From a virus, in IMG/VR virus record IMGVR_UViG_3300006846_000001, positions 37,314-101,313 of that record: DNA of 64,000 nucleotides. One strand, given 5' to 3'. The position numbers and the translations under genes were made by a program. The first letter of the stretch is position 1. Every line of letters starts with the position of its first letter. This document shows, piece after piece, positions 39,245 to 64,000 of this stretch. The notes below the pieces were generated by a model. That model did not search any database. It saw only the letters and a program-made list of their open reading frames with translations, and was not told the DNA's origin.

Positions 39245-41674
39245 TCAGGGGGTGGCGACGGTCGGCGTGCCGGTGAGGGGCGTTATGACGAGGCGGGCGT
39301 GGTACCGGAAGGCCGGTTCCTGGTTGCGCGCCTGGTCGATCTCGATGTGCGCGTACGTGACGTTGCCGTAGTGGTCGAGGACGCAGACGTAGGGCAGCGA
39401 CGCGTCCACGAGGGCCTCCAGCGGCGCCCACACAGCGTCCAGACCGATGTCCTGGCCGACTTGGTTGGTGGGCTGCTGCCCGAAGTTGGCCACGATGGTC
39501 AGCGTCTTGGACATGCCTCGGCGCTGGGGGTCCTTGAAGGCCACCTGGTACTCGCGGCCCTCTAGCTGGAGGAGGACGTCGGAGCGCAGGGGGGTGTAGT
39601 CGACGCCCGGCTCCCGGGTGTAGACGACTTGGAGGCTCGGGTCGGCGTTGCTGGTGAGGATCAGCTCGCACCCGTAGGTGAGGGGGATGATCCAGTCGGT
39701 CGTCGCCCAGTCAGAGAAGGCGGCGGTCGTGGCCACGGAGCGGATGCGGTACTGGGCCGACCGGTTGCGGCGGGCCTCGTAGTCAGCGAAGAACGTCGTC
39801 GCCTCGGTGTCGATGCTGGCCACGTCCTCCCACACCGGCTCTGTGCCGTCCCCGGAGTCGTAGCGCCGTTGGATCTCGTAGCGCGAGAAGCTCCCGGCGA
39901 GGGCGGTGGCCGTCCAGCGGACGAGGCTCTGATCGATGTAGGGCACCCTGCAGAAGCACCGGGCGTCACCGGTGGGTTGCTGGTCGACCTCGGCTCGCAC
40001 GTTCGTGGGCGCCGCGGGCTGGATGAGGATGGTGACCATGGCGTCAGCGTCAGCGACGGCCACGCCGCCTACCCGGAGGCTGTCCGTGGTACCACCGAAT
40101 GATGAGGAGGCGTCGCCGGTGTAGCAGTAGGGCGTCTCCACGACCCAGTCATCGGTCGTGTCGACGTCGAGGCGCACGTCGTATTGCGTCGCCGCTGACA
40201 GGGCCACCACCGCGGAGAAGAAGCCCTCCACGTACCGCAGCTCCGTGTCGTTGATGCGGGGCAGGGCCCGCACCTCCTCGGCGGTGATGGTGAAGGCCCC
40301 GGTGCCGACTTGGGCGCCGCCCGTCGTGAAGACCCGAACGGTGAGGGTCGCGTCCGCTGTGCTGGGGGGAATGATGACGAGGCGCACCCCCAGGTAGTTG
40401 TTGGCGCCCGGGCTCGTGATGCGCTGCGCGATCGAGGTCCCCGAGTCGAGGACGCGCAGGTGGTCCCCGGAGAACTCCATGGTGTAGGGCTGGGAGTCAT
40501 CCGAGTCGGCCGGTGCCGATGTGCGCAGCACGAAGCGGCCCATGCGCCGGCTCGTTCCCTCGAATGCCTGCACCGGCTCACCGTGGGACCCGACTTGCCA
40601 ATTCGTTTGGGAGACGAGGCCGGGCACCGACGGGTAGCTGATGCCCGCAGGGTTCCCGCCATCGCCCAGGTCCTGGTAACTGGACAGCCACCGGATGTCT
40701 GACGCCGGCGTCGTGGACCCTGACAGGAGGGTGTCGCGGCCCCAGCGGGGAGCGAGGAGGTAGTCGGTCGCGTTGACCTTCGACCAGTTCGTGGCCCACC
40801 CACCGGCCCCGTCCGGCTCGACGAGGGTGTCACTGGAGACGATCGTGGCGAGGGCCCCGGCGGGGCGCTGCCACACGCCCACGGCGTCGCGGTTCTCCGT
40901 CGTCCAGTAGGAGACCTTCAGCGACATGGACAGGACGACGGCGCCGCACGCGACCGTGCCTAGTGCCGTGATGCGAAGGTGCCAGTCCCCGGAGTCGAAG
41001 CTGCGCACATCATCGGGGCACCAGGGCAGCCCCGTCACGGGGTTGATTTCGCCCATCGAGACCTCGATGGGGTTGGGTGCCAGGCCGTTGTTCACGAAGC
41101 TGGCGCCGGGGGGCTGGTAGACGGTGGAGGTGGGCTGGTGGAAGAAGGACAGGGTGAAGGTGCGGGGGATGGTGCTGGTGCGATTCGGGTCCAGGCCCAC
41201 CACGGCGCGCATGGACAGCCTCGAGACGCGGGCCGTCAGAGGGAAGGCGCTGGAGTCAACGGAGCATCGGTACTGGGAGGTGCCGCCACCGATGTTGAGG
41301 ATGTAGTCCGTCGCTGACGCTGGAGGGAACACGACGGGATCGTCGATGTAGAGGTAGAGGTTGGTGGTGCCGCCCAGCGGGTCCGTCCAGGAGCCGATGG
41401 ACTCGTCGAGGATCGGCGCGTACTCCACGACTTGGAGGGTCCCGGGGTCCTCGGCGCCCTGCGTGAAGACCTCCCACAGGGTGTAGAGGGGCGCCGTCAC
41501 GGCAGGGTCGGAGGCGAGGGCCAACTCGATGTCTGTGATCGTCTCTGTGGCCGTCGAGGTGAAGCCCTGGACGAGGCCGGGTTGTGATTGGGCTATGGGG
41601 TCGGACGAGCCGACGGTGTTCATCGTCTCGTTGCCGAGGACGGCAGGGGCGTTGGTGTTCCAGTCGTTGGCCAC
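39245..41674 (-). CDS. Large minor tail protein
   Basis: 809 residues from a GTG at 41674 overlapping the tape measure stop. Almost entirely predicted beta, with several Ig/fibronectin-like repeats (for example around PAAPTNVRAEV and SRYEIQRRYDSGDG). It is probably a tail-tip structural protein or adhesin. The C-terminal 150 residues contain LTIVANFGQQPTN, seen in tail proteins that contact the baseplate. Confidence 0.65.
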   Translation of the reverse strand: MANDWNTNAPAVLGNETMNTVGSSDPIAQSQPGLVQGFTSTATETITDIELALASDPAVTAPLYTLWEVFTQGAEDPGTLQVVEYAPILDESIGSWTDPLGGTTNLYLYIDDPVVFPPASATDYILNIGGGTSQYRCSVDSSAFPLTARVSRLSMRAVVGLDPNRTSTIPRTFTLSFFHQPTSTVYQPPGASFVNNGLAPNPIEVSMGEINPVTGLPWCPDDVRSFDSGDWHLRITALGTVACGAVVLSMSLKVSYWTTENRDAVGVWQRPAGALATIVSSDTLVEPDGAGGWATNWSKVNATDYLLAPRWGRDTLLSGSTTPASDIRWLSSYQDLGDGGNPAGISYPSVPGLVSQTNWQVGSHGEPVQAFEGTSRRMGRFVLRTSAPADSDDSQPYTMEFSGDHLRVLDSGTSIAQRITSPGANNYLGVRLVIIPPSTADATLTVRVFTTGGAQVGTGAFTITAEEVRALPRINDTELRYVEGFFSAVVALSAATQYDVRLDVDTTDDWVVETPYCYTGDASSSFGGTTDSLRVGGVAVADADAMVTILIQPAAPTNVRAEVDQQPTGDARCFCRVPYIDQSLVRWTATALAGSFSRYEIQRRYDSGDGTEPVWEDVASIDTEATTFFADYEARRNRSAQYRIRSVATTAAFSDWATTDWIIPLTYGCELILTSNADPSLQVVYTREPGVDYTPLRSDVLLQLEGREYQVAFKDPQRRGMSKTLTIVANFGQQPTNQVGQDIGLDAVWAPLEALVDASLPYVCVLDHYGNVTYAHIEIDQARNQEPAFRYHARLVITPLTGTPTVATP

Positions 41675-44600
41675 TAGCCGCCCATCCTCGCGTTCGTGTC
41701 GATGCTGCGGCGAGCGATCGTCCACTCGGCCAGGACGGCGTTGGCAGCGCCCCGGGCCTTGCGCTCGAACGTCGCCTGGTCCTCCCCGGGCGTGGACTGG
41801 ATGACGACGGCGCCGGGCAGCACGTTGACCGTCGTGTCCCCGCCTGCCGCTGAGGTGGCCGTGACGGCGGCCAGAGCAGCCGGAGCGAGGCCGGCGGCCA
41901 CATCCAGGCCCTGGGCTGCCACATCGAGGGTCCCGGCCGCAGCGGCGGCCGCTGAGGTGACGAGGCCAGCGGCACTCTCGGCCACGGTTGGGGCGGTGGC
42001 GTCGAGGCCCACGGCGACGCCCTCGCCCATGTCGATGCCCAACTCGGCGAAGAGTCTGGAAGGGGAACCCGTCTTGGCCTTTGACCGGGCAGCGGCGATG
42101 GCCGCCTCCACGAGGTTCGCGGCGGCGTTCGCTGCGGCCTGCGCGGCGGCGTTGATGCCCGACTGCATGCCCTGGGCCAGTGCCGTGCCGAGGCTGTAGC
42201 CGGCGCCGCTGGCGGCGGACTGCTTGGCCGCCACCTTGGCGATGGCAGAGTTGGCGGCTCCTACCGCAGCGGTGGGCATGCCGGCCGCCCCGATCCTGGT
42301 GCCCCCGGTGAAGCCACCACCGAAGACGCCGCCAGCGACGCCGGCGGCGGGGGCCCTGCCGCTGATGCCTCCGATCGTCAAATCCGCGGAGCGGGCGCCC
42401 ACACCGGGCATGGGTGAGACGCCAGTCCCGAAGCCCAGGGTCGCGCCGCCACCAAAGAGGGCCCCGGCGATGACGGCTCCGGCCTGGTGGGCTTGGATCT
42501 CCTTGACGGTCAACTCAGCTTCACCGGCCCCCTCGATGGACATGCCGCCGATGCCGTCCTTGAAGCCTTGCTTGCCGGCCTCCCCGAGGCCGGCGCCAGC
42601 GGAGGCCATGTTGGCGTTCTCGTCCTCGATGGAGGCGATGGTCCCGCGGGTGGCTGCCGCTGCCTCAGCCTGCGGGTTGAAGTGCTCCCCGAATGCCTCC
42701 GTGGCGAGCTGGCCTATGAGGCCCGTCGCCTCAGCGGTGCGGGGGCCGATCTCGTTGCGGGCCTTGTCGTCGATGCCAGCGAGACTGAGGTCGTAGATGG
42801 CGAGCTGCTCCTCGGCGGCCGCCGCGATCTCGGGGTTGCCGGACCGGATGGCATCAGCGAAGGCCGCTGCCACCTCCGGGCCCTGCGTGGCGGCGATGCG
42901 CTGGAGGCGCGGGAAGTCGGCGAGGACATCAAGGTTCTCACCGAAGTTTGCGATGGCCTCGTTGGCCTTCTCCAGCTCCTCAACAAAGTTCTCAGCGGAA
43001 AACTCGTCGCCCAGCCCGCTGATGATGTCACCAATAGTCGGCAGACTTGAGACGGTGTCTTCAGCAAATTGGTTGATGGAATCGTTGACTGATTCGACGA
43101 AGCCCTTGAGGTCATCAAGGCTCACGCCCAGGGTGTCAGCGACGTTCTGGAGGTCCTCCTCCGCGACCCTCGCGTCGCCGGCCACGGTGGCCAGGCCCAC
43201 CAGCTCCAGGTTCAGGTTGCCGCTGTCATCAGTGACTTGGGCGAGGGAAAGGGCCAGGCGGTCAGCGGCCAGCGCAGCGGGGCCAGTGGCCTCCACGAGG
43301 TTGCCCGTCTCATCGACGGTCACGCCGATCTGCTCGGCCAGCCGTGCCTGCTCGTCGGTGAGGATCTGGAGGACCGTGGTGTAGTCAGTCGACGCGACCG
43401 TGACCCCCAACACCTCTTCCTTTGAGGTGTTGGCCTTGACCGCCATGTCCACGAACTCATCGGACAGGCCCGACGATGCTGTGACCGCGTCGACCTGGCG
43501 TTTCGCGGCCTGGTTGATCTTGTCGTTGACCTGGTCGAGGATCGGCCCGAGGATCCCCAGTTCTTCTCTCGTGGTCCCCAGCGCCTCCGCCCACGCGTCG
43601 GTGTCAGCGCCGTTCTTGGAGACGATCTGACCGAACTCTTCGGCGCTCAACCCAAGCGCTGCGAGCAGGCCGACGCCGCTGTCGCCCTGCTCAACGAGGT
43701 CCTCGAACGCCGCAGCAAACGCGTCGACCCCGGTCGCCCCCTCATCGAAGGCATCACCAAACGCTGTCTGGATTTGCACGACGCTGCGCTCGAACTCGGC
43801 GGCTTCCTTGGCGCTTTCCTCGAACGCCAGGCCAATGGCAGCGAGCCCGAGTGACAGGCCGATGCTCGCCGCGTTCGCGGCGACCATGTCCCCGACGGAT
43901 TGCTTGAGGCTGACGCCGAAGCCGCCCGGTCCCTTCTTGGGGTCGGCCAGGTCCGAGAATCCCAGCTTGAGGTTCTGGAAGAGGTCCGAGCCGCCGACCC
44001 TCTTGAAGGCAGCGAGGAGGCCCAGGAGGGTAATCAGCTCGGGGGGCACGCTGGCGATGGCACGGGCCACAGCCTCAAGAGCGGGGGCCGTGGATACCAG
44101 AAGCCGGGTGAAGGACCCGGCCACGGGGAGCAGGGCCACGAAGATGTCCGCGAGCGCGGGGAGGACTGAGGTGCCCAGCTCGATGAAGGCGGGGATCAGT
44201 TCCTCGCGGGCGACTCCCACCCCCTCCAGCAGGGCGGGGAGGAGGGCCTGGCCGAGGGTGGTGACGGCGTTCTGGAACTCGGCGGTGAGGATGCGCTGCT
44301 GGTTGGCCAGCCCGTCACTCGTCCGGGCGAAGTCACCCTGGGCCGTTGTGGACTGCTCGAGGATGAGGGCCCAGCGGGCTTGGAGCTTGGCCCCCTCGGT
44401 GATCTCCCCATTGGCTGATGCGAGGCCCAGCTCCATGGCCTTCGCCTCGACCTCGGCCGCGCCGAAGCTGATGCCCAGGGACCGCAGCGGTTCGATCTCG
44501 CCGACGAGGCCCGACCGGAGCTTCTCGAGGGTCTCATCGACGGAGAGGTTGTTGAAGGACGCCAGGTCGGCGGCCAGGGTGACGACGCCGGGGGCCAGTT

Positions 44601-45669
44601 CGGTGGCCGCTTCCTTCGTGGCGCCGAGCGCGACGAAGAGGTTGCCGAAGGTCGCGGTCGCTTCTAGGGCGGCGGCCTCGCTGAGGCCCACGCTCTCGGC
44701 GCTGACGTCCGCGAACTCTTGGACGGTGGTGATGCCCTCCCCGAAGACGACCGTCGCCTTGGAGGTGGACTCCTGGAGGTCTGAGGCGGCCTGAGCGGCT
44801 TGGAAGAGGCCAGTGGCTATGCCGGCGCCGCCCAGGGCTGTGAAGACGGCACGGAGGCGTACGCCTGACCCTGAGGCTGCGATGAGGCTGACGTCGAGGT
44901 CATCGAGGACGTCCCCAAGGCCGCTCACACCCCCGGCGGCGTCGCCGGCCGCAGCGCCTACGGAGGCGACTTGCCCATCAACCCGGTCGAGTTGGGCCCC
45001 GACTTGGGATAGGGCGGCGGTCGCGGCGGCGATGTCGACGCGCACGGCGGTGGAGACGTCGCCTGCGTCGATCTCGTTGAGGCGGGTCTGGATGCGGCCC
45101 AGCTCGGCGATGGCCTCGTCGTCGCTGATATCGACGCCCACGGTCTGGTTGTCCAGGCGCAGGAGGGCATCTCGGAGGCCGGCGATCTCTCGCTGCGCCT
45201 GGCTGGTGTCGGTGCCGACCTCAACGTCAGGTAGGGCCTTGACGGCCGCTGACACGGACCGGGAGAAGGCTTTGGCGAAGGCGCCGCCCACGGCGGTGCC
45301 CTTGCCCGGGGCCTGGCGCTGCTGCTCAGAGGTGCCCTCCTCGAAGCCGTCGTCGAGGCCCTCTTTGACGGACTGCTTGAGGGGACCGGAGTCACCATCA
45401 ACAGTGACCTCCGTGTCGGCCGCGTCCACAGCGGCGGTGACGTCGCTCGTGAGGTCAGTCGCGTCGCCGGTGACGACGACTTGGCTATCGGCCGCGTCTA
45501 CGGCGGCGGTGACCTCGGCGGCTAGGCCAGCAGTGTCCGCCTCGATGCGGATGGTCTGGCCGCTGGTGGCCTGGTCGAGGGTGGCCCGGAGGCGCTCGGC
45601 GGCCTGGAGGGCTGACCGAATATCGAGGGTGAGGTCAGCGTCAAGGCCGAGGTCGGACACGGCGCTCAT
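41674..45669 (-). CDS. tmp: Tail tape measure protein
   Basis: 1331 residues; ATG at 45669, chosen over a longer frame that enters a hairpin. Ala/Gly/Asp-rich and helical, with TKATVVFGEGITTVQEFADV and LAADLASFNNLSVDETLEKL typical of the TP901-type core, a hydrophobic central segment (about 530-570), and a C-terminal KTGSPSRLFAELG motif. Tape measure length correlates with tail length, so a tail near 0.2 micrometre is expected. It follows the frameshifted chaperone pair, as usual. Confidence 0.9.
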   Translation of the reverse strand: MSAVSDLGLDADLTLDIRSALQAAERLRATLDQATSGQTIRIEADTAGLAAEVTAAVDAADSQVVVTGDATDLTSDVTAAVDAADTEVTVDGDSGPLKQSVKEGLDDGFEEGTSEQQRQAPGKGTAVGGAFAKAFSRSVSAAVKALPDVEVGTDTSQAQREIAGLRDALLRLDNQTVGVDISDDEAIAELGRIQTRLNEIDAGDVSTAVRVDIAAATAALSQVGAQLDRVDGQVASVGAAAGDAAGGVSGLGDVLDDLDVSLIAASGSGVRLRAVFTALGGAGIATGLFQAAQAASDLQESTSKATVVFGEGITTVQEFADVSAESVGLSEAAALEATATFGNLFVALGATKEAATELAPGVVTLAADLASFNNLSVDETLEKLRSGLVGEIEPLRSLGISFGAAEVEAKAMELGLASANGEITEGAKLQARWALILEQSTTAQGDFARTSDGLANQQRILTAEFQNAVTTLGQALLPALLEGVGVAREELIPAFIELGTSVLPALADIFVALLPVAGSFTRLLVSTAPALEAVARAIASVPPELITLLGLLAAFKRVGGSDLFQNLKLGFSDLADPKKGPGGFGVSLKQSVGDMVAANAASIGLSLGLAAIGLAFEESAKEAAEFERSVVQIQTAFGDAFDEGATGVDAFAAAFEDLVEQGDSGVGLLAALGLSAEEFGQIVSKNGADTDAWAEALGTTREELGILGPILDQVNDKINQAAKRQVDAVTASSGLSDEFVDMAVKANTSKEEVLGVTVASTDYTTVLQILTDEQARLAEQIGVTVDETGNLVEATGPAALAADRLALSLAQVTDDSGNLNLELVGLATVAGDARVAEEDLQNVADTLGVSLDDLKGFVESVNDSINQFAEDTVSSLPTIGDIISGLGDEFSAENFVEELEKANEAIANFGENLDVLADFPRLQRIAATQGPEVAAAFADAIRSGNPEIAAAAEEQLAIYDLSLAGIDDKARNEIGPRTAEATGLIGQLATEAFGEHFNPQAEAAAATRGTIASIEDENANMASAGAGLGEAGKQGFKDGIGGMSIEGAGEAELTVKEIQAHQAGAVIAGALFGGGATLGFGTGVSPMPGVGARSADLTIGGISGRAPAAGVAGGVFGGGFTGGTRIGAAGMPTAAVGAANSAIAKVAAKQSAASGAGYSLGTALAQGMQSGINAAAQAAANAAANLVEAAIAAARSKAKTGSPSRLFAELGIDMGEGVAVGLDATAPTVAESAAGLVTSAAAAAAGTLDVAAQGLDVAAGLAPAALAAVTATSAAGGDTTVNVLPGAVVIQSTPGEDQATFERKARGAANAVLAEWTIARRSIDTNARMGG

Positions 45670-45694
45670 CGTAGGTGCGACGCTGGCCCGGCGG

Positions 45695-45727
45695 CCGGGA
45701 CGGTGACACCCCACGTCACCGTCCCGG
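45695..45727 (-). terminator. Hairpin between chaperone and tape measure genes, 13-bp stem
   Basis: CCGGGACGGTGAC pairs perfectly with GTCACCGTCCCGG around a 7-base loop. It probably causes partial termination, lowering tape measure levels relative to upstream structural proteins. Confidence 0.55.
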
Positions 45728-48629: not shown

Positions 48630-49079
48630 TCAGACGGAGCGCAGAGCGTCCGAGGGGCGGTGCACCTCCAGGGGCAGGATCTGCTCTGGGAGCACGTGCA
48701 CCGGGTCGAAGCCCATGGACGCCACGGCGTACGCCTGCTCGCCGGGGCCGGTCCCGTCCGGGAGGGGGCCACCGGCCTTGCCGCCGATGACGACGACGTC
48801 GCCGACGGACAGGGAGCGCAGGCGGACGGTCCGGTACGACTCGGCGGTGAAGCGGGCGCAGCCGACAAGGATGCACTCGTCGTCGGTGCAGCGGGCGTCG
48901 TGGGGGATCGCGTCAGTGTCCTGGTTGAACAGGTAGAAGGCGTTCTCGAGGACCTCGTGGACGTTGAGGGCTGTCACGTCCCGCTCGTACTGGTAGACGC
49001 CCTGGATCTTCGTGGAGTCGGTGAAGCGCTCGAAGGCGCCCTGGCCGAGCTCAGCGTGGTAGACGGTGATCGTGCTCAT
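48630..49079 (-). CDS. Moron-like hypothetical protein, 149 aa
   Basis: Starts MSTITVYHAE. Mixed alpha/beta; two Cys in a CTDDECILVGC cluster. Self-contained unit (own promoter and hairpin) between the gp10-like connector and the zinc-finger moron. No family recognised. Confidence 0.6.
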   Translation of the reverse strand: MSTITVYHAELGQGAFERFTDSTKIQGVYQYERDVTALNVHEVLENAFYLFNQDTDAIPHDARCTDDECILVGCARFTAESYRTVRLRSLSVGDVVVIGGKAGGPLPDGTGPGEQAYAVASMGFDPVHVLPEQILPLEVHRPSDALRSV

Positions 49080-49116
49080 GCCGACGACACTAACCCGGGT
49101 TAGGGGCCTCGGTCAA
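49080..49116 (-). promoter_or_regulatory. Operator-promoter (perfect palindrome)
   Basis: Minus strand: TTGACC (-35), 18-bp spacer with CTAACCCGGGTTAG (49090-49103), TAGTGT (-10), then 7 bases to the ATG. Confidence 0.85.
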
Positions 49117-49118
49117 GG

Positions 49119-49547
49119 TCACTGGGGGAAGACGCGGCGGGCGGCGATGGGCAGGGCCTGGCGGTAGCTCTGGGTGATGACGTCGCGCCACCAGGGCATG
49201 GGCAGGTTGCCGGGGTGGTTTACCTTCTTGAGGGCCACGACTTGCCCGGCCTTGGGCCAGTAGAAGACGAGGAGGCCGCCCGGGTTGCGGGGCCGGATGA
49301 CGTGGGGTCGGGCGCCCTTGTCCGTGGTGGTGGCTTGGATGACGGGGGCTCGGACCTTGCCCCTGCTCACGGGGCCAGCGAGGATGATGCCGGGGTCGCG
49401 GCGGATGCTCCCTCGGAGTTGGCCCTTGTCGTGGGGCACGAAGGGGTGACGGCGCGCCTGGTCGACGGTCTCGTCGATGGCGGCCGACAGGATGCGGGGG
49501 CCGACTGAGCGGAGGCCGTTGATGAGGCGGTCGGCTCTGACGGTCAC
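49119..49547 (-). CDS. HK97 gp10-like head-tail connector protein
   Basis: 142 residues from a GTG at 49547 (GTGA). Begins TVRADRLINGLRSVGPRIL, contains HPFVPHDKGQLRGSI near residue 40, and ends in a strand-rich part; this order is typical of HK97 gp10/tail-completion proteins. It would join the head connector to the tail. It is separated from the adaptor gene by the glycosylation island. Confidence 0.6.
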   Translation of the reverse strand: MTVRADRLINGLRSVGPRILSAAIDETVDQARRHPFVPHDKGQLRGSIRRDPGIILAGPVSRGKVRAPVIQATTTDKGARPHVIRPRNPGGLLVFYWPKAGQVVALKKVNHPGNLPMPWWRDVITQSYRQALPIAARRVFPQ

Positions 49548-49774
49548 GCTGCCCTCCGGCGCCGGCGTCGGGTGTGGCCGGGGAGGCGCAGAGCGACGAC
49601 GCCCTTGCTCGTGCAGGAGCCGCAGCACCCGGCCGGGGCGCGGGTGCCCACGGGACGGCCGCAGCACGGGCAGCAGAAGTGGGGGCGGACGCGCACGATG
49701 GGCGGCCGGCCGTCATCGTCGGGCCAGCAGAAGAGGCACGTCTCGCGTCGGTGGAAGCACAGGCGCTTGTCCAC
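49544..49774 (-). CDS. Cysteine-rich small protein, 76 aa
   Basis: GTG at 49774. Eleven cysteines (CFHRRETCLFC, CCPCCG, CCGSC) and a basic tail point to two zinc sites and nucleic-acid binding. An operator-like CTAACCCCGGCTAG (49802-49815) lies upstream, but the promoter parts are not clear. Confidence 0.5.
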   Translation of the reverse strand: MDKRLCFHRRETCLFCWPDDDGRPPIVRVRPHFCCPCCGRPVGTRAPAGCCGSCTSKGVVALRLPGHTRRRRRRAA

Positions 49775-49811
49775 GTGCCCACGGTACCGAGGGTGCCGGC
49801 GCTAGCCGGGG

Positions 49812-50099
49812 TTAGATCTCGATGACGGGCCGAGAGTCGGCCGGCGGCGGGACCGGTGCCGGGAGTACCGGCGGCCGGAGGTGGTCGCGCAGCACGGCGG
49901 CCCGCTCATGGGGCACGGACTCGCGGCCGAGGGCCCGGTCCGCTCGGCGGATGCTCCCCACGTGGGACCGGAAGGACTTGGCCATCCCGACCCAGCCGCA
50001 CGAGCATCGGACGTGGGGCTGGCGGATGTGGCGCTCCCGGTAGCTCCCCCGTCCCAGGCTGGCGGTGCACCCCTCCACGGGGCAGCCGTTGCCCGTCAC
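49812..50099 (-). CDS. Zinc-finger protein, paralogue of the gene at 6725
   Basis: 95 residues, GTG start (GTGA overlap). CPVEGCTASLGRGSYRERH...RCSCGWVG...H aligns closely with the protein at 6725-7051. The C-terminus is Pro-rich instead of Cys-rich. The two copies lie 43 kb apart. Confidence 0.6.
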   Translation of the reverse strand: MTGNGCPVEGCTASLGRGSYRERHIRQPHVRCSCGWVGMAKSFRSHVGSIRRADRALGRESVPHERAAVLRDHLRPPVLPAPVPPPADSRPVIEI

Positions 50100-50821
50100 T
50101 GGGGCGGGGGCCGGTGCTCGGCCAGGCGGGCGTAGAACAGGTCCCTGTCGACGTGGAGGCCGTCAGTGGCGAGTTGGTAGGTGGCGTCGACGGGGGCCGT
50201 CCCGAAGACGTGGTGGAGGTGCTGGATGATGGCCTTGGGGGCCTTGGCCCACATGTTGGGGCCCTCGTCGGGGGCGCCCGTGCGCCCGTCGGGGTGCCGG
50301 TTCTTCGCTGCGGCCATGATCTCAGCGTCGACGTAGTAGTGCCGATAGCCCTCGTGGCACACGACGCCCGGGCCGTCGAAGCTGGCGCCGTAGGCGTCCA
50401 CGTAGGCCCGGGAGATGAGGGGGTGGGAGGGGCCGGCGGCGTCCTTGTGGAAGCCCAGGTCGTTCGTGTTCACGACGCTGGCGCCCGTCTCCTGGGCGAC
50501 GGTCAGGACCTCATCGAGCCACCCCGCGTGGAAGCGCACGTCATCGCCGAGGAGGAGCATCCACGGGGCTGGCGTCCCGAGGTCGGGGATCTGGCGGTAC
50601 GCCAGGTTCACCTTCCTCGAGAAGGTCCCCGGCTCGTCGCAGACCATCACGTCAGCACCTACTTGCTGCCAGGCGCGTGCGGTGGCCACGTCCCGCTCCG
50701 ACGCGATCGCGACGAGGGCGACCCTGTCCATGTCCACGCTCTCGCGGAGGCTGTGCACGAAGGGCCGGGCGCTGTCGGGGCGCCACAGCACGGGCACGAT
50801 GAGGTCTACGACGGGCTCCAT
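50096..50821 (-). CDS. Glycosyltransferase, GT-A type
   Basis: 241 residues. An N-terminal Rossmann-like strand (VDLIVPVLWRPD), then LLLGDDVRF near residue 89, the metal-binding acidic motif, and a C-terminal acceptor region with GVVCHEGYRHYYVDAEI. It would transfer a nucleotide-activated sugar in the cytoplasm. Last enzyme of the glycosylation island; overlaps the next GT by 16 bp. Confidence 0.7.
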   Translation of the reverse strand: MEPVVDLIVPVLWRPDSARPFVHSLRESVDMDRVALVAIASERDVATARAWQQVGADVMVCDEPGTFSRKVNLAYRQIPDLGTPAPWMLLLGDDVRFHAGWLDEVLTVAQETGASVVNTNDLGFHKDAAGPSHPLISRAYVDAYGASFDGPGVVCHEGYRHYYVDAEIMAAAKNRHPDGRTGAPDEGPNMWAKAPKAIIQHLHHVFGTAPVDATYQLATDGLHVDRDLFYARLAEHRPPPQ

Positions 50822-51429
50822 GACCTGCCCTCGTTCCAGTCGCCGAAGCGGTAGAAGACGGTGCGCTGGCCGGTGGCGTAGAAGCGGGCGCCAGAGGTGA
50901 CGAGGCGCCGCCAGTTCGTCCAGTCAATCCACGTGCCGGACCCGGGTAGCGAGCCGGGCGGCGCCGGCTCAGCGTCCACCCACCGACCGAAGGCTGAGGC
51001 GCGGGCCACGACCATGGAGGGGACGAACCAATTGTCCCGCATGATGTCCGCGAAGTTGGTGCGGGGATCCCCGGCGACCTCACCGGCGCAGCGGCGCACG
51101 AGGGGCGGGCGGCCGCCGGTGGTGGTGCAGTCCGCGACGATCACGTCGTGGCCAGCGTCGAGGTGCTCCTCGGCGATGGCCAGGTGGCGGGGCGTCCACG
51201 TGTCATCGTCGTGGAGGAAGGCGTAGGCGAGCTCGGTGGCGTCCTGCCCGGAGGATCGGTCGGCCGCCTCCAGGAGGCGGTTCATGTTCATCACCTCACC
51301 GACGCCGGCGTAGTCGACGCCGATGAGGAGGTGGTCGGGCTGGCGGGTCTGGCGGTACACGCTGTCGATGGCCTCGGCCAGCAGGTCCCCGCGTGAGGGG
51401 AGGCTGACGCAGATGGCGGCGATCTCCAC
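50806..51429 (-). CDS. Glycosyltransferase family 2-like
   Basis: 207 residues from a GTG at 51429. The start VEIAAICVSLPSRGDLLAEAI followed by RQPDHLLIGVD and YAFLHDDDTW (catalytic DXD, about 88-96) is typical of GT2 nucleotide-sugar transferases. Acceptor unknown. Confidence 0.7.
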   Translation of the reverse strand: MEIAAICVSLPSRGDLLAEAIDSVYRQTRQPDHLLIGVDYAGVGEVMNMNRLLEAADRSSGQDATELAYAFLHDDDTWTPRHLAIAEEHLDAGHDVIVADCTTTGGRPPLVRRCAGEVAGDPRTNFADIMRDNWFVPSMVVARASAFGRWVDAEPAPPGSLPGSGTWIDWTNWRRLVTSGARFYATGQRTVFYRFGDWNEGRSWSPS

Positions 51430-51431
51430 GG

Positions 51432-51953
51432 TCAGCGCCTGGCGGTGGCGTAAACGTCGCCGTGCTGGGCGCCGGGCCGCAACGCGGCCGGGACGCCGCG
51501 GGCCTCGCGCACGACGGCCGATGAGTAGGACCGGGACAGGATGCCGGACAGCTCTGTGGAGTCGATGTTCTCGTAGAACTCGCCGGGCCGGAGGGCCCCG
51601 CCATCCTCGGCCGAGTGGGGCAGACGCCCGGGGCCCGCAGCGGTGAAGATGAGGTACCCGTCCGGGCGGAGGAGGGTGGAGGCGTGGGTGAGGTGGTCGC
51701 GCCAGTCGGGGGTGTGCTCGGCGACCTCCAGGTGAAGGATCATGTCGAAGGGCTCGGCCTCGCCGTGGTAGTGCAGGAAGTCGCACTGCACGTCGACGCC
51801 GGGGCCTGGGCGAATGTCCAGGGTGGTGTAGCTGGCGGGGGTGAAGAGGTCCCGGACGGTGCCGTTGATGTTGCGGCCGCCCACATCCAGGATGCGGGCC
51901 TGGTGGCCGGCGGCGGCGAAGCGTTCTACCCACTGGCGGGCGTCGAGGTGCAC
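51432..51953 (-). CDS. Class I SAM-dependent methyltransferase
   Basis: 173 residues from a GTG at 51953. ILDVGGRNINGT (motif I), FDMILHLEVAEHTPDW and LLRPDGYLIF follow the Methyltransf_11 order. It lies between two glycosyltransferases, so a sugar or glycan methylation role is likely. Confidence 0.7.
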   Translation of the reverse strand: MHLDARQWVERFAAAGHQARILDVGGRNINGTVRDLFTPASYTTLDIRPGPGVDVQCDFLHYHGEAEPFDMILHLEVAEHTPDWRDHLTHASTLLRPDGYLIFTAAGPGRLPHSAEDGGALRPGEFYENIDSTELSGILSRSYSSAVVREARGVPAALRPGAQHGDVYATARR

Positions 51954-51962
51954 GGGTCGTCC

Positions 51963-52715
51963 TTACGCGTCGGGGTCGTGGATGAGGGGCTGGGTGACGT
52001 ACTGGTCCCACCAGGCGTCCAGGGTGCCGGCGGCGGCCATGCCGGCGAGGTCGCGCCAGTAGGACCCTGATGATGCGCGGGCTGCTCCGGCGGCGTTGTA
52101 CGCCTCCATGCCGTTGCGGATCTTGCGGCGCAGGTGGTCGAGGCTCCTGAACTGGTAGTGGCGGCAGCCGAGGGCGTGGTGGTGGACGCGGTGGCCGGCG
52201 CCGTCTACGCCGTGGTTGCCCATGTGAAGTCGGGCGTAGGGGTTGGCCCGGAAGACGACTTTCGGGAGGGGCTCGGGGCCGGGGGTGCGCCACAACATCC
52301 GGGTGATGGGGTTGGGGTCGTCAGCATCGTCGCCGGGTTGGGGGACCATCACGTACGGGCGGGCCGTCAAGATGTCGTAGGGCGGGTCCTCGCGGAGCTG
52401 GTCGAGGTGGTACCACGCTTCGTCCGCGTCCCAGGGCACGACCCAGGTGGCGCCCATCTGCCACGCCTGGTGGGCCAGGCCCGTCATCTTGTCATCCTGG
52501 TAGTAGGCGGGCTCGGGGTCCTCGATGACGGTGACGCGGGAAGTGGTGGTGGGCGGCGGCATGTTCCGCTCGGCGTACGCGATGGCGGCCTCGACGCACC
52601 CGTCCACGGACCGGTTGTCAGCGATGATCACGTGGTCGACTTGGGCGAGCATGTGCTCAAGCGTCCACGGGAGGATGTCCGCCTCATCCCGGACCATCGT
52701 TATAGCTATAAGCAA
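51963..52715 (-). CDS. Glycosyltransferase (GT92/GT2-type)
   Basis: 250 residues from a TTG at 52715, with AGGAG 11 bases upstream. The start IAITMVRDEADILPWTLEHM is the family hallmark, followed by VDHVIIADNRSVDG and PWDADEAW (metal site). A His-rich C-terminal part follows. Transfers a sugar to an unknown acceptor. Confidence 0.75.
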   Translation of the reverse strand: MLIAITMVRDEADILPWTLEHMLAQVDHVIIADNRSVDGCVEAAIAYAERNMPPPTTTSRVTVIEDPEPAYYQDDKMTGLAHQAWQMGATWVVPWDADEAWYHLDQLREDPPYDILTARPYVMVPQPGDDADDPNPITRMLWRTPGPEPLPKVVFRANPYARLHMGNHGVDGAGHRVHHHALGCRHYQFRSLDHLRRKIRNGMEAYNAAGAARASSGSYWRDLAGMAAAGTLDAWWDQYVTQPLIHDPDA

Positions 52716-52790
52716 GAGTCGGCTCCTTCCAAGGACTTGGCGAGTGGGACCTGCGCCCCGGTCATGAGCTGATGGCGATGAGCTTCACGG

Positions 52791-53399
52791 CTAGCGGCGC
52801 AGGAAGAGGGCGTCATCGACGCGCTGGAGGGGAGCGAAGCCCCCGTTGATGGCCTGGTCGACGGTGGCCTGGATGCCGGGGATGGGCACGTCGTGGAACG
52901 CGAGGATGCCGGCGGGAGCGATGCGGGGCGCCCAGATGAGGAAGTCGTCCATGACGGTCTGGTCGTCGTGGCCACCGTCGATGAACAGGAAGCTGATGGG
53001 CGTCTGCCAGCGGCGGCCCACGATGCCGGACTTGCCCACGACGGGCACGACGTGGTCCTCGAGGCCGGCCACGTGCATCGTCCGTTGGAAGAAGGGCAGG
53101 CTGTTGAAGCGCCCGTCGGGGCCGACCATCTCGGGGTGGTGGCACTCGCGGCCCGGGGCCATCTCCGGTGACCCGCGGTGCCAGTCCACCGAGTAGAGGA
53201 TGGTGCTGTGCTGGCGGGCGGCCTCGCCGATCCAGCAGGCGCTCTTGCCGGCGTAGCCGCCGATCTCCACGAGGGGCAGGCCGGGGTGGGCCTGGGCGGC
53301 CATCGCGGCGTGACGGGCCAGCTCGGGGCCCTCAGAGGGGTGGAGCCACCCCAGCGCGTCCTCGGCGGCCTTGCGCCATGTCTCGGTAGGACCAGTCAT
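52791..53399 (-). CDS. Class I SAM methyltransferase (Methyltransf_24-like)
   Basis: 202 residues; ATG at 53399 lies 8 bases after TAAGGT within an operator variant (53410-53423). LVEIGGYAGKSACWIGEA (motif I, about 43-60), SFLFIDGGHDDQTVMDDF and GGILAFHDV-like ends match enzymes that methylate sugars. It overlaps the acyltransferase gene by 68 bp. Confidence 0.65.
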   Translation of the reverse strand: MTGPTETWRKAAEDALGWLHPSEGPELARHAAMAAQAHPGLPLVEIGGYAGKSACWIGEAARQHSTILYSVDWHRGSPEMAPGRECHHPEMVGPDGRFNSLPFFQRTMHVAGLEDHVVPVVGKSGIVGRRWQTPISFLFIDGGHDDQTVMDDFLIWAPRIAPAGILAFHDVPIPGIQATVDQAINGGFAPLQRVDDALFLRR

Positions 53400-53940
53400 A
53401 CGCCAGGACCTTACCGGGGTTACCGGCGACCACTGCCCCCGGGGGCACGTCATCGATGATCACGGCGCCGGCCCCGACGAAGGCCCCGGCGCCGATGGTG
53501 ATGCCGCCGTGGGACACGGTCGCGTTGGATCCGATGACGACGTCAGGGCCGACGGTCGTGTCCCCGCCCAGGACGGCCCCGGCACAGATGAGGGTGAACT
53601 CGCCGACGCTCGATCCGTGGGCGATGACGGCGTTGTACTGGATGTGGGTGTGGTGGCCGATGGTCACCTCATCGCCGAGGTGAGCGCCGGGCCAGAGCAT
53701 GACGCCGCCGCCCCGGGGTCCCACGATGCGCCGGTCGTAGAGGCGCTGGACGAGGGCCCGGCGCTGCTCGGGCCATGCTTGGCCGGCGATCCAGGGGTGC
53801 GTCTTGGCGCCCTCTACGCAGTCCAGGAGGTGGGGGTGCTGGCCCTGGTCGTCATCGTAGAGGACCGGGCCTCGGCCCTCGTCGCGGAGGATGGCGGCGA
53901 TCTGGCGGCCGTGCGGGCCGGCCCCGAGGACAGCGATCAT
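53332..53940 (-). CDS. NeuD-like sugar O-acyltransferase (left-handed beta-helix)
   Basis: 202 residues. The N-terminal MIAVLGAGPHGRQIAAIL is a small nucleotide-fold domain; residues 80-180 are hexapeptide repeats (TIGHHTHIQYNAVIAHGSS, VIGSNATVSHGG), giving a left-handed beta-helix as in NeuD/PglD acetyltransferases. It probably acetylates a sugar of the island's product. Confidence 0.8.
   Translation of the reverse strand: MIAVLGAGPHGRQIAAILRDEGRGPVLYDDDQGQHPHLLDCVEGAKTHPWIAGQAWPEQRRALVQRLYDRRIVGPRGGGVMLWPGAHLGDEVTIGHHTHIQYNAVIAHGSSVGEFTLICAGAVLGGDTTVGPDVVIGSNATVSHGGITIGAGAFVGAGAVIIDDVPPGAVVAGNPGKVLAYDWSYRDMAQGRRGRAGVAPPL
53405..53428 (-). promoter_or_regulatory. Operator-promoter variant inside the acyltransferase gene
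   Basis: Minus strand: GTAACCCCGGTAAG (53410-53423, 11 of 14 matches) with TAAGGT 8 bases before the methyltransferase ATG. The -35 box is poor. An internal promoter for the 3' half of the island is possible. Confidence 0.4.
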
Positions 53941-53969
53941 CCCGGGACGGTATCCCGGGCGGGGCCGGT

Positions 53970-54008
53970 GGCGGGGCACCTCGAATGGGGCGTAAGAGGC
54001 GCCCCGCC
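53970..54008 (-). terminator. Hairpin, 8-bp stem, after the LPXTG gene
   Basis: GGCGGGGC (53970-53977) pairs with GCCCCGCC (54001-54008) with a 23-base loop, 10 bp after the stop at 54019. Confidence 0.45.
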
Positions 54009-54018
54009 AGCGGAGGAC

Positions 54019-54696
54019 TCAGGCCGCCCGAAGGCGGCGGCGGGCGATGGCCATGATGGTGCCGCCCGCAGCGATGAGGCCCGCTCCGGTGGCCACCATG
54101 GGGCCGGTCGTGGAGCCGGTTTGGGGCAACTGCCCTGTTGAGGTGGGCGTCTGCGGGGCGGCGACGAAGGACGGCTCGTTGCAGGCGACGCCGTCACCGT
54201 CAGCGTCGAGGCCGGGGCGGTAGCCCACGTCACCGGAGGCGAGGGGCGCTCGGCCCGCGGCGCGCACGTCGTCGCAGTCCTGGTACAGGTTGGCGTCGCC
54301 GGCCGTCGTGGAGGTCGTGGCCGGGAGGGGAGGCATCGTGGTGGAGGTCGTCAGGATGGTAGAGGTCGTGGTTGGGGCCACGGTCGTGGACGTCGTCGTG
54401 GGTGGGGCTGTGGTGGAGGTCGTCGTCGGGGGCGGCTCGGCGCACACGCACCGGCCCTCCTCGTCGATCTCACCGATGAGGTCCGGGGTGGACTCGTCGC
54501 CGTCGTGGTCGAAGGTGCACCGGTTGCCGGGCTCGGCGTCGTCGCTGGACTCCCCATCGCAGTCGACGTCGGGGCTGGAGCATGGGGGCTTCTGCGTCTG
54601 GGGGCTGGCCGATGCTGGCGAGGCGGACGATGCCACACCGATGGTCAGGCCCAGCGTCAGGGCCACGAGGGCCAGGATGGCTCGGAGCGAGCGCAT
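54019..54696 (-). CDS. Secreted Excalibur-domain protein with LPXTG wall anchor
   Basis: 225 residues. A signal peptide (1-30, ending ASPASA) is followed by an Asp/Cys-rich segment (39-75), a Thr/Pro/Ser stalk (88-131), an Excalibur calcium-binding domain (138-173, with C141, LDADGDG and C172), and the sorting signal LPQTG (190-194), a hydrophobic helix and RRRLR tail. Host sortase would attach it to peptidoglycan with the Excalibur domain exposed. It sits inside the glycosyltransferase island behind an operator-type promoter, so it probably alters the surface of the infected cell or lysogen. Confidence 0.85.
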   Translation of the reverse strand: MRSLRAILALVALTLGLTIGVASSASPASASPQTQKPPCSSPDVDCDGESSDDAEPGNRCTFDHDGDESTPDLIGEIDEEGRCVCAEPPPTTTSTTAPPTTTSTTVAPTTTSTILTTSTTMPPLPATTSTTAGDANLYQDCDDVRAAGRAPLASGDVGYRPGLDADGDGVACNEPSFVAAPQTPTSTGQLPQTGSTTGPMVATGAGLIAAGGTIMAIARRRLRAA

Positions 54697-54721
54697 AGGG
54701 CTTCCTTCCCTGGGGGGTTGG

Positions 54722-54765
54722 TAAGCCAGCGACCCTAACCCGGGTGACCACCCGTGCGCGCAACC
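54722..54765 (-). promoter_or_regulatory. Operator-promoter variant of the LPXTG gene
   Basis: Minus strand: GTCACCCGGGTTAG (54734-54747, 12 of 14 matches), TAGGGT (-10), and about 30 bases of leader with a GGAAGGAAG Shine-Dalgarno. The -35 box is weak. Confidence 0.55.
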
Positions 54766-54772
54766 CGGCCGA

Positions 54773-55477
54773 TCACGGCCTCACGAGGTAGGCAGGGAAG
54801 CGCCCGTCGGAGTCCTCCAGGAGGGTGAGCTTGCCCAGCGCTCGAAGGTCGGCCATGGCTCCGTCGCGGTCGGCGATCCACGGCCAGTGCATGGAGATGA
54901 TCATGGGGCAGCGCACATCCGTGAGGCGCCCCAGGATGTCCGCCTCGCCTCCCTCGATGTCGATCTTCACGAGGGCCAGGTCCTGGCCGGCGCGGGCCAG
55001 GACGTCGCCGATGTCCACGGCCGGTGCCGTCACCTCTTGGATGATCGGCGCCTCCCCCTCGGAGTGGCGGAGGTACAACTCGGGGGCGATCGTCGTGGAC
55101 CCGGAGTTGCCCCAGTCAGCCCGGTTGCGGAGGATGATGGACCCGACGATGCCGTTGGTGACGGCGGCGGGCCAGATGCTCACGTTCTCCGCGTTCATGG
55201 CCACGTTCGATAGGAGGACGGGCACGGCGTAGGGGTCGGGCTCGATGGCAATGACGTGGTCGGCTCGCTGGGCGCCCCACAGGACGGTCGGGCCAACCCA
55301 GGCGCCGATGTCCAGATAGGTGCCACCATCCGTGAGGTGCCGATGGATGGCCTCCAGGACCTGGGGCTCCCAGACGCCAGAGGCGTACTGCTGCTCCCAG
55401 AAGTTCCAAGATCGGGTCTGGTCATCGTCCATGACGGCGAAGGTGTACCGGCCCCGGGTGACATCAATGATCCTCAC
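54773..55477 (-). CDS. FkbM-family methyltransferase
   Basis: 234 residues from a GTG at 55477 (GTGA overlap). YLDIGAWVGPTVLWGA (motif I), HVIAIEPDPYAVPVLLSNV, and VKIDIEGGEADIL (about 162-174) are the FkbM signature. FkbM enzymes O-methylate sugars and similar hydroxyls. First gene after the glycosyltransferase block on this side of the LPXTG gene. Confidence 0.8.
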   Translation of the reverse strand: MRIIDVTRGRYTFAVMDDDQTRSWNFWEQQYASGVWEPQVLEAIHRHLTDGGTYLDIGAWVGPTVLWGAQRADHVIAIEPDPYAVPVLLSNVAMNAENVSIWPAAVTNGIVGSIILRNRADWGNSGSTTIAPELYLRHSEGEAPIIQEVTAPAVDIGDVLARAGQDLALVKIDIEGGEADILGRLTDVRCPMIISMHWPWIADRDGAMADLRALGKLTLLEDSDGRFPAYLVRP

Positions 55478-63433: not shown

Positions 63434-64000
63434 TCAGGTGTAGGAGGCGCAGAAGGGCGCCGGGTCGATGGTGCCGGCGACGGCACCGGAGGGGCACACG
63501 TCGATGGTCCCGTCGATGGCCTCCGGGCCGACCATGTGAACGTTCTCGAAGGTCTCCGAGAAGACCTGGAAGTCGTTCACCGCGTTGGTCGCGGTGTCGC
63601 GCACGACGCCCAGATCCAGCTCGCCGCCGTCGAGGTGGATGAAGGTCCCCGCCGGGTACATCACGTAGTTGATGGTCGGCGGGAGGGCGGCCAGGGCGGT
63701 GTCCGCGCCCTGGTTGCCGATGGTGTTCACGTCCGGTGACCACACGGGCGTGATGAACCGGGAGGCGAACCACGCGTTGATCTGCGCCTGGGCCAGCGTG
63801 AGGTTCTCCTGGAAGCTGCCGCCGGGCAGGCTGCGGGAGATGTCGATGCGGAAGATGGTGTTCAGCAGCGACGGGAGGATCACGATGAAGGGGAAGTCGT
63901 CGTCCAGGCGGTGCCGCGAGCGCATGCCGGCGGCCGTCTGGTCGAGGATCGTGAGGACGTCCCGCGACGCGGAGAAGTCCGTCATCGTGTTGGTCGTCGT
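63434..64000 (-). CDS. Major capsid protein, C-terminal part (5' end outside window)
   Basis: The frame is open to the right edge, so only about 188 residues are seen. YVMYPAGTFIHLDGGELDLGVVRD and VNDFQVFSETFENVHMVG segments match the E-loop/C-terminal end of HK97-fold capsid proteins of actinophages (each written here only in part: INYVMYPAGTFIHLDGG, then NDFQVFSETFENVHM). Two Cys near the C-terminus (DVCPSG, PFCASY) are unusual for this fold. The upstream start and the protease and portal genes must lie beyond 64000. Confidence 0.8.
   Translation of the reverse strand, partial: TTTNTMTDFSASRDVLTILDQTAAGMRSRHRLDDDFPFIVILPSLLNTIFRIDISRSLPGGSFQENLTLAQAQINAWFASRFITPVWSPDVNTIGNQGADTALAALPPTINYVMYPAGTFIHLDGGELDLGVVRDTATNAVNDFQVFSETFENVHMVGPEAIDGTIDVCPSGAVAGTIDPAPFCASYT

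Follow-up and report, generated by a model that had tools for sequence, protein, structure and literature searches.

An Excalibur protein with a predicted cell-wall anchor encoded in the structural module of an Actinomycetota-type phage

Why would a phage encode a small secreted protein that ends in a cell-wall sorting signal, and what would it gain from displaying such a protein on the cell that it infects? The question is raised by a gene at 54019-54696 on the minus strand of a 64,000-nucleotide stretch of viral DNA, hereafter the window, which spans positions 37314-101313 of a virus record 101,313 bases long.

The gene encodes 225 amino acids. A previous sequence-only reading had recognized a signal peptide, a stalk, an Excalibur domain and an LPQTG sorting signal in this protein, and all four were recovered within the minus-strand open reading frame, with Pfam and shuffle tests in agreement. 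The signal peptide (residues ~1-31, with an ASA-type site; 54604-54696) was judged from the hydrophobic N-terminus in a hydropathy scan, with no dedicated predictor, and residues 2-22 are helical in a single-sequence structure prediction of poor quality (mean pLDDT 50). It is followed by a Cys-rich acidic region (residues ~32-87; 54436-54603) that contains weak strands in the same low-confidence model and has no relatives in Pfam or among the collected Excalibur loci. Residues 88-133 (54298-54435) form a stalk rich in Thr, Pro and Ser (22, 9 and 5 of 46 residues, respectively). The Excalibur domain (residues 138-172; 54181-54285) was identified by Pfam family PF05901 with an E-value of 2.3e-11 and 44.3 bits against a cut-off of 22. 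Its disulfide-forming cysteines, C141 and C172, are invariant in our alignment (A3), and the Pfam search of the window protein found no nuclease-type domain ahead of Excalibur, of the kind present in gp27 of Gordonia phage Finkle.

The LPQTG motif occupies residues 190-194 (54115-54129) and is followed by a hydrophobic segment and a basic RRRLR tail (54022-54114), both supported by the hydropathy scan and the shuffle test. The Gram_pos_anchor family PF00746 matches residues 184-221 with an E-value of 5.7e-4 and 20.2 bits, barely above the cut-off of 20. The combination of LPxTG, hydrophobic segment and basic tail did not occur in 200,000 shuffles of the protein, as compared with 653 of 200,000 for a bare LPxTG at the same distance from the C-terminus. 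Of the 147 genes called heuristically in the record, only this one encodes a proper sorting tail; one other call fits a loose motif (LAATA) but has no membrane segment. The window protein is therefore built like a sortase substrate, with a signal peptide, an LPXTG motif, a hydrophobic segment and a basic tail.

The record begins and ends with the same 110 bases (L126 1-110 and window 63891-64000), and a capsid gene runs across the joined ends, thus the record, which is labelled linear, probably represents a complete and circularly closed genome of ~101.2 kb. Matches to PHROGs include a major head protein, a head-tail adaptor and a major tail protein; portal, terminase, tape measure and endolysin families were matched in group-wise protein scans of the record. 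A search with the capsid fragment gave 114 phage records, of which 113 are named, by the first word of the name, as phages of Actinomycetota and one as 'Dulem'. The record is a siphophage of the Actinomycetota type; no close relatives were found among viral contigs with the capsid fragment, the head-tail adaptor or a portal-region protein as query. The Excalibur gene is flanked by phage genes on both sides within this closed contig, in line with the earlier proposal that it is phage-encoded. Neither tyrosine nor serine integrase (PF00589, PF00239) was matched in the record, and a family search of the record revealed no ParA; therefore, a role in lytic infection is favoured over lysogenic conversion. 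No sortase was found in the phage record either. 'ParB-like' families in a group scan made a phage-plasmid thinkable, a possibility set aside with ParA not found in the record. Two further proteins of this phage may act at the cell envelope: a tail protein with a GDSL lipase/acylhydrolase domain (60202-61782, minus strand), through which the tail may act enzymatically on the host surface, and a secreted SGNH/GDSL-like hydrolase, identified by visual inspection, whose N-terminus resembles a signal peptide or that of a lipoprotein (L126:9595-10299, minus strand).

Could the gene be a passenger, coding for a surface protein and captured recently from a host, nearly neutral and of little benefit to the phage? 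We consider this unlikely. The N-terminal part of the protein has no relatives among the collected loci, as would be expected of such a passenger, but the base composition of the gene matches the phage: its third-position GC content is 0.90, as in the neighbouring genes. Against a passenger there is also the 76-nt gap upstream of the gene (54697-54772, minus strand), which holds a half copy, ACCCGGGTTAG, of the phage's own promoter/operator-like element and then a leader with a GGAAGG-type ribosome site.

The full element, CTAACCCGGGTTAG, is repeated in intergenic regions of the phage inside leaderless promoter-like units ahead of genes starting MST. Each unit consists of a TTGACC-type box, the palindrome CTAACCCGGGTTAG and a TAGTRT-type box, followed within ~10 bases by ATGAGCAC. 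The window contains 27 matches, with at most two mismatches, to a pattern of 12 bases of CTAACCCGGGTTAG, versus 6.65 expected (both strands, a palindrome being counted twice). There are 14 units, 12 of them with a perfect palindrome, at window positions 59756, 59273, 49093, 48551, 33991, 25704, 22624, 21620 and 11055 (minus strand), at L126 18252, 17742, 17319 and 8079, and at L127 6966. These units look like one phage regulon, in which the operator would lie over the promoter. The control of the Excalibur gene is probably different from that of the units with the full element, because only the half copy and a leader with a ribosome site precede it. No promoter or terminator was detected when 49000-60000 was scanned with general methods.

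The Excalibur gene lies within a cassette (50096-57934, minus strand) of genes for a GT4 glycosyltransferase, FkbM-type and other methyltransferases, a hexapeptide transferase and a GT2 glycosyltransferase, and lies between these genes on the same strand. On the upstream side of the cassette is the head-tail adaptor (58119-58934, minus strand); downstream is a gene for 1346 amino acids (41674-45714, minus strand), which we took as the tape measure from its length and from a group scan listing tape-measure families, with the matching member unspecified. These two genes are 12.4 kb apart here, versus 1.9 kb in Arthrobacter phage Mimi, 1.8 kb in Actinomycetia phage DSL-LC01 and 2.2 kb in Streptomyces phage TurkishDelight. 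The cassette is thus an insertion in the structural module, between head-tail adaptor and tape measure. In TurkishDelight, a relative of the cassette GT4 is located between capsid and major tail genes. Seven capsid or glycosyltransferase relatives, TurkishDelight among them, were checked for Excalibur and none has it; the two of nine records that matched in this check, Finkle and Big4, had both been picked as Excalibur matches beforehand.

This gene neighbourhood bears on two other explanations. The location among structural genes would be natural for a virion protein, but a signal peptide and a sorting signal would not, and the other phage Excalibur proteins examined carry export, membrane or anchor signals, so that we regard a virion role as highly improbable. 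Another proposal, which we find improbable, is that the protein is a partner or substrate of the cassette, its Thr-rich stalk being glycosylated and the whole set jointly remodelling the host surface. The mid-cassette position on the same strand is consistent with this proposal, as are the 22 threonines among the 46 stalk residues. However, substrates of the Sec pathway are glycosylated outside the membrane, whereas the cassette glycosyltransferases have no membrane segment and look cytosolic. TurkishDelight, with a related glycosyltransferase in the same module, has no Excalibur match, and phage glycosyltransferases are usually tied to virion glycosylation (PMC11256854), which also speaks against a cassette partner.

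A DNA pattern for the Excalibur loop retrieved at least 120 viral-contig loci. Among the matches listed, 105 of 120 contain an Excalibur-like frame by a frame search, and 7 of these 105 have an LPXTG/LAXTG-type tail. Among 50 loci from Actinomycetota genomes, 32 contain such a frame, and a tail of this type is present in 5 of the 32, two of these representing a single place; Excalibur proteins with such tails are therefore ordinary in Actinomycetota, which favours a host-derived passenger. Six of the seven tail cases in viral contigs were examined, and each of them adjoins phage hallmark genes (terminase, portal, tape measure or endolysin). L022 sits in a head module, flanked by terminase and a gene with weak similarity to portal, and a major head gene is close by; L117 is placed after tape measure and endolysin; L028 is near terminase and portal, L112 and L084 are near terminase, and L078 is near endolysin and tape measure. 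The recurrence of this architecture in several unrelated phages argues for repeated retention and hence against a passenger.

The best match of the window protein among the collected loci is L022 (IMGVR_UViG_3300037797_000133, L152:7771-8589), with 49% identity over 63 residues (159-220) spanning Excalibur and the anchor. The two proteins share a signal peptide, a Thr-rich stalk, Excalibur and an anchor, which is LPRTG/LPxTGST in L022. They differ in that L022 has its own N-terminal part, a shorter Excalibur match (profile positions 14-36), another phage lineage and another gene position; besides this protein, the compared stretch of the L022 phage has no match to our phage at an E-value of 1e-6. 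Another tail case, L117 (L154:16899-17804, minus strand), combines a GmrSD_C/HNH-type domain, Excalibur and an LPKTG anchor, and from these domains its product is possibly a wall-anchored nuclease able to cut incoming phage DNA. It resembles Finkle gp27, which has the same two domains but no anchor. A scan of eight viral contigs, including the six examined, and of Finkle revealed no sortase. The window protein and Finkle gp27 and gp28 have in common a phage-encoded Excalibur with an export or membrane signal; unlike the window protein, the Finkle proteins have no LPXTG, gp27 contains the GmrSD_C/HNH-type domain, and Finkle is a temperate phage with an integrase.

No full-length relatives of the window protein were found in viral contigs. 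A search of phage records with the full protein returned three records, in which the Excalibur part alone matched. One of them, Stenotrophomonas phage TS-12 (L003), was set aside as phage evidence, with an ABC transporter and a stage V sporulation protein nearby; these neighbours are atypical for a Stenotrophomonas phage, so that the deposit is possibly a mixture or carries a wrong label. Against genomes, the C-terminal half matched two loci, in Rubrobacter and in a Rhodobacteraceae bin, neither of which names a host, and the full protein matched in 33 of 396 Actinomycetota genomes, chiefly over the stalk and Excalibur stretch. A combined DNA pattern for Excalibur and LPXTG gave no matches with a short gap and two with a longer gap, thus such genes are rare by the strict pattern; L187, from the longer-gap pattern, has an LPETG tail, and the tail of L057 is LAHTG. 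The earlier description of such a protein as unusual in a phage is accordingly accurate as to rarity and has to be revised as to isolation, with wall-anchor proteins present in at least six other viral contigs and seven isolated actinophages.

These isolated actinophages were found with Microbacterium phage Big4 gp260, a 'hypothetical protein' of 751 amino acids with a signal peptide, LAATG, a membrane segment and a basic tail; its Excalibur domain at 662-696 scores 23.4 bits with a cut-off of 22. Big4 gp260 matches ten phage records, of which eight were examined, leaving out a duplicate Pumpernickel record and a record with a masked name. LAXTG with a membrane segment and basic tail is present in seven of the eight (Big4, A3Wally, Zooman, Magritte, Pumpernickel, Kurnik and FuzzBuster); the SM23 protein contains LATTG but, in its annotated form, lacks a proper membrane segment. 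On visual inspection, no obvious signal peptide is present in the Pumpernickel and SM23 proteins as annotated. Excalibur is found in two of the seven LAXTG-anchored proteins, Big4 gp260 and A3Wally gp278, and in none of the printed C-terminal 75 residues of the Zooman, Magritte, Pumpernickel, FuzzBuster and Kurnik proteins. Class E sortases recognize LAXTG, and no sortase was found in the eight examined records. Big4 gp260 and A3Wally gp278 share with the window protein a secretion signal, Excalibur near the C-terminus, a sortase-type anchor and the lack of a phage sortase, and differ from it by a length of ~735-750 amino acids, by LAXTG in place of LPXTG and by another N-terminal part. The LAXTG proteins of this group, from Microbacterium and Micrococcus phages (L203:5030-7285, L204-L210), are labelled hypothetical or membrane proteins and never wall-anchored.

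The function of the Excalibur tip was considered by comparison with known systems. In the Excalibur structure of CbpL, calcium is coordinated by one Glu and three Asp residues, and the domain is unfolded when calcium is absent; a role of Excalibur in adhesion and colonization has been proposed, and CbpL combines it with an Ltp-type domain, a kind of domain associated with superinfection exclusion (PMC5137146). The window protein retains the three loop aspartates (D164, D166 and D168), but the residue after the second cysteine, at the position of the Glu ligand, is Asn, and the domain terminates in ACNE in place of the usual ACE. Among the matches listed, this residue is E in 72, D in 13, K in 2 and N in 1 of 88 distinct viral Excalibur sequences, as tallied with a search pattern that admitted N, K, D and E only; ACNE is also present in Rubrobacter (L005). 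Calcium binding by the window Excalibur is possible but uncertain, and the earlier suggestion that the protein binds calcium at the wall is weakened by the replacement of the Glu ligand. The Excalibur of pneumococcal CbpL (5J8T) belongs to the same domain family and aligns at residues 134-173 with an E-value of 0.0066, but CbpL is a non-phage protein held by choline-binding repeats, with the Glu ligand present and an extra Ltp-type domain. The link between Excalibur and exclusion via CbpL is circumstantial.

An adhesin would serve the phage in another way: the infected cell would adhere to neighbouring cells, to flocs or to surfaces and thereby bring the progeny into contact with new hosts, with calcium tuning the folding of the tip. 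Stalked wall proteins are the usual anatomy of adhesins, which the window protein fits, and SasX of a staphylococcal prophage is a phage-carried LPXTG colonization protein. The likeness to SasX lies in an LPXTG protein on a phage element; SasX differs in belonging to a Firmicutes prophage and to lysogenic conversion, and the lack of an integrase match in our record argues against an integrating temperate carrier of that type. The calcium-dependent folding and the proposed colonization role of Excalibur (PMC5137146) also favour an adhesin. Nevertheless, the protein has no known adhesin domain, the phage without an integrase would form no stable lysogen to profit for long, and the Glu ligand is replaced by Asn, and we judge an adhesin to be quite unlikely.

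The explanation that we favour, with slightly less than an even chance of being correct, is that the gene is a phage moron whose product is anchored by a host sortase to the wall of the infected cell, to the benefit of the infecting phage. The Excalibur gene would be accessory and dispensable for the virion; the host would export the product, and its own sortase would link it to new peptidoglycan. Export and anchoring are predicted from the anatomy together with the frequency of sortase, which was found in 125 of 149 sampled Actinomycetota genomes, a base rate for Actinomycetota as a group. The Thr-rich stalk would then hold the small disulfide-bonded Excalibur and the Cys-rich tip at the surface of the infected cell, where the displayed protein may hinder adsorption or DNA entry of sibling or rival phages. 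Alternatively, it may keep released progeny from binding the wall of spent cells or debris. Either benefit would suit an integrase-free phage better than lysogenic conversion. Several observations weigh against this explanation. The score of the anchor match barely exceeds its cut-off; a gene located among late structural genes is presumably expressed late, in which case excluding other phages would be of less use; the window protein has no enzymatic domain or binding domain of known target; and the same picture would be expected of a passenger gene that is neutral or derived from the host.

Staphylococcal prophages are known to carry LPXTG proteins, and in the limited collection of literature searched we found no description of a sortase-anchored protein of a lytic actinophage. 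It can be tentatively speculated, as a plausible though less than even prospect, that genes for surface proteins relying on the host sortase are widespread in Actinomycetota phages, and that these proteins form a general class of wall-displayed proteins protecting the infection or the progeny. Isolated phages would then already contain several such genes labelled 'hypothetical' or 'membrane protein', and the window gene would be an integrase-free case within a cassette that may re-dress the host or the virion with glycans. What appeared as a single odd gene becomes a recurring pattern across unrelated actinophages. This pattern can be tested by ordinary phage genetics, since Microbacterium foliorum NRRL B-24224 is the recorded host of Big4, A3Wally, Zooman, Magritte and FuzzBuster, and the LPXTG/LAXTG tail provides a simple annotation rule for genes currently called 'hypothetical'. 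If the favoured explanation is true, a phage that makes its host weld a protein onto the host's own wall would exert an unusual control of the cell surface.
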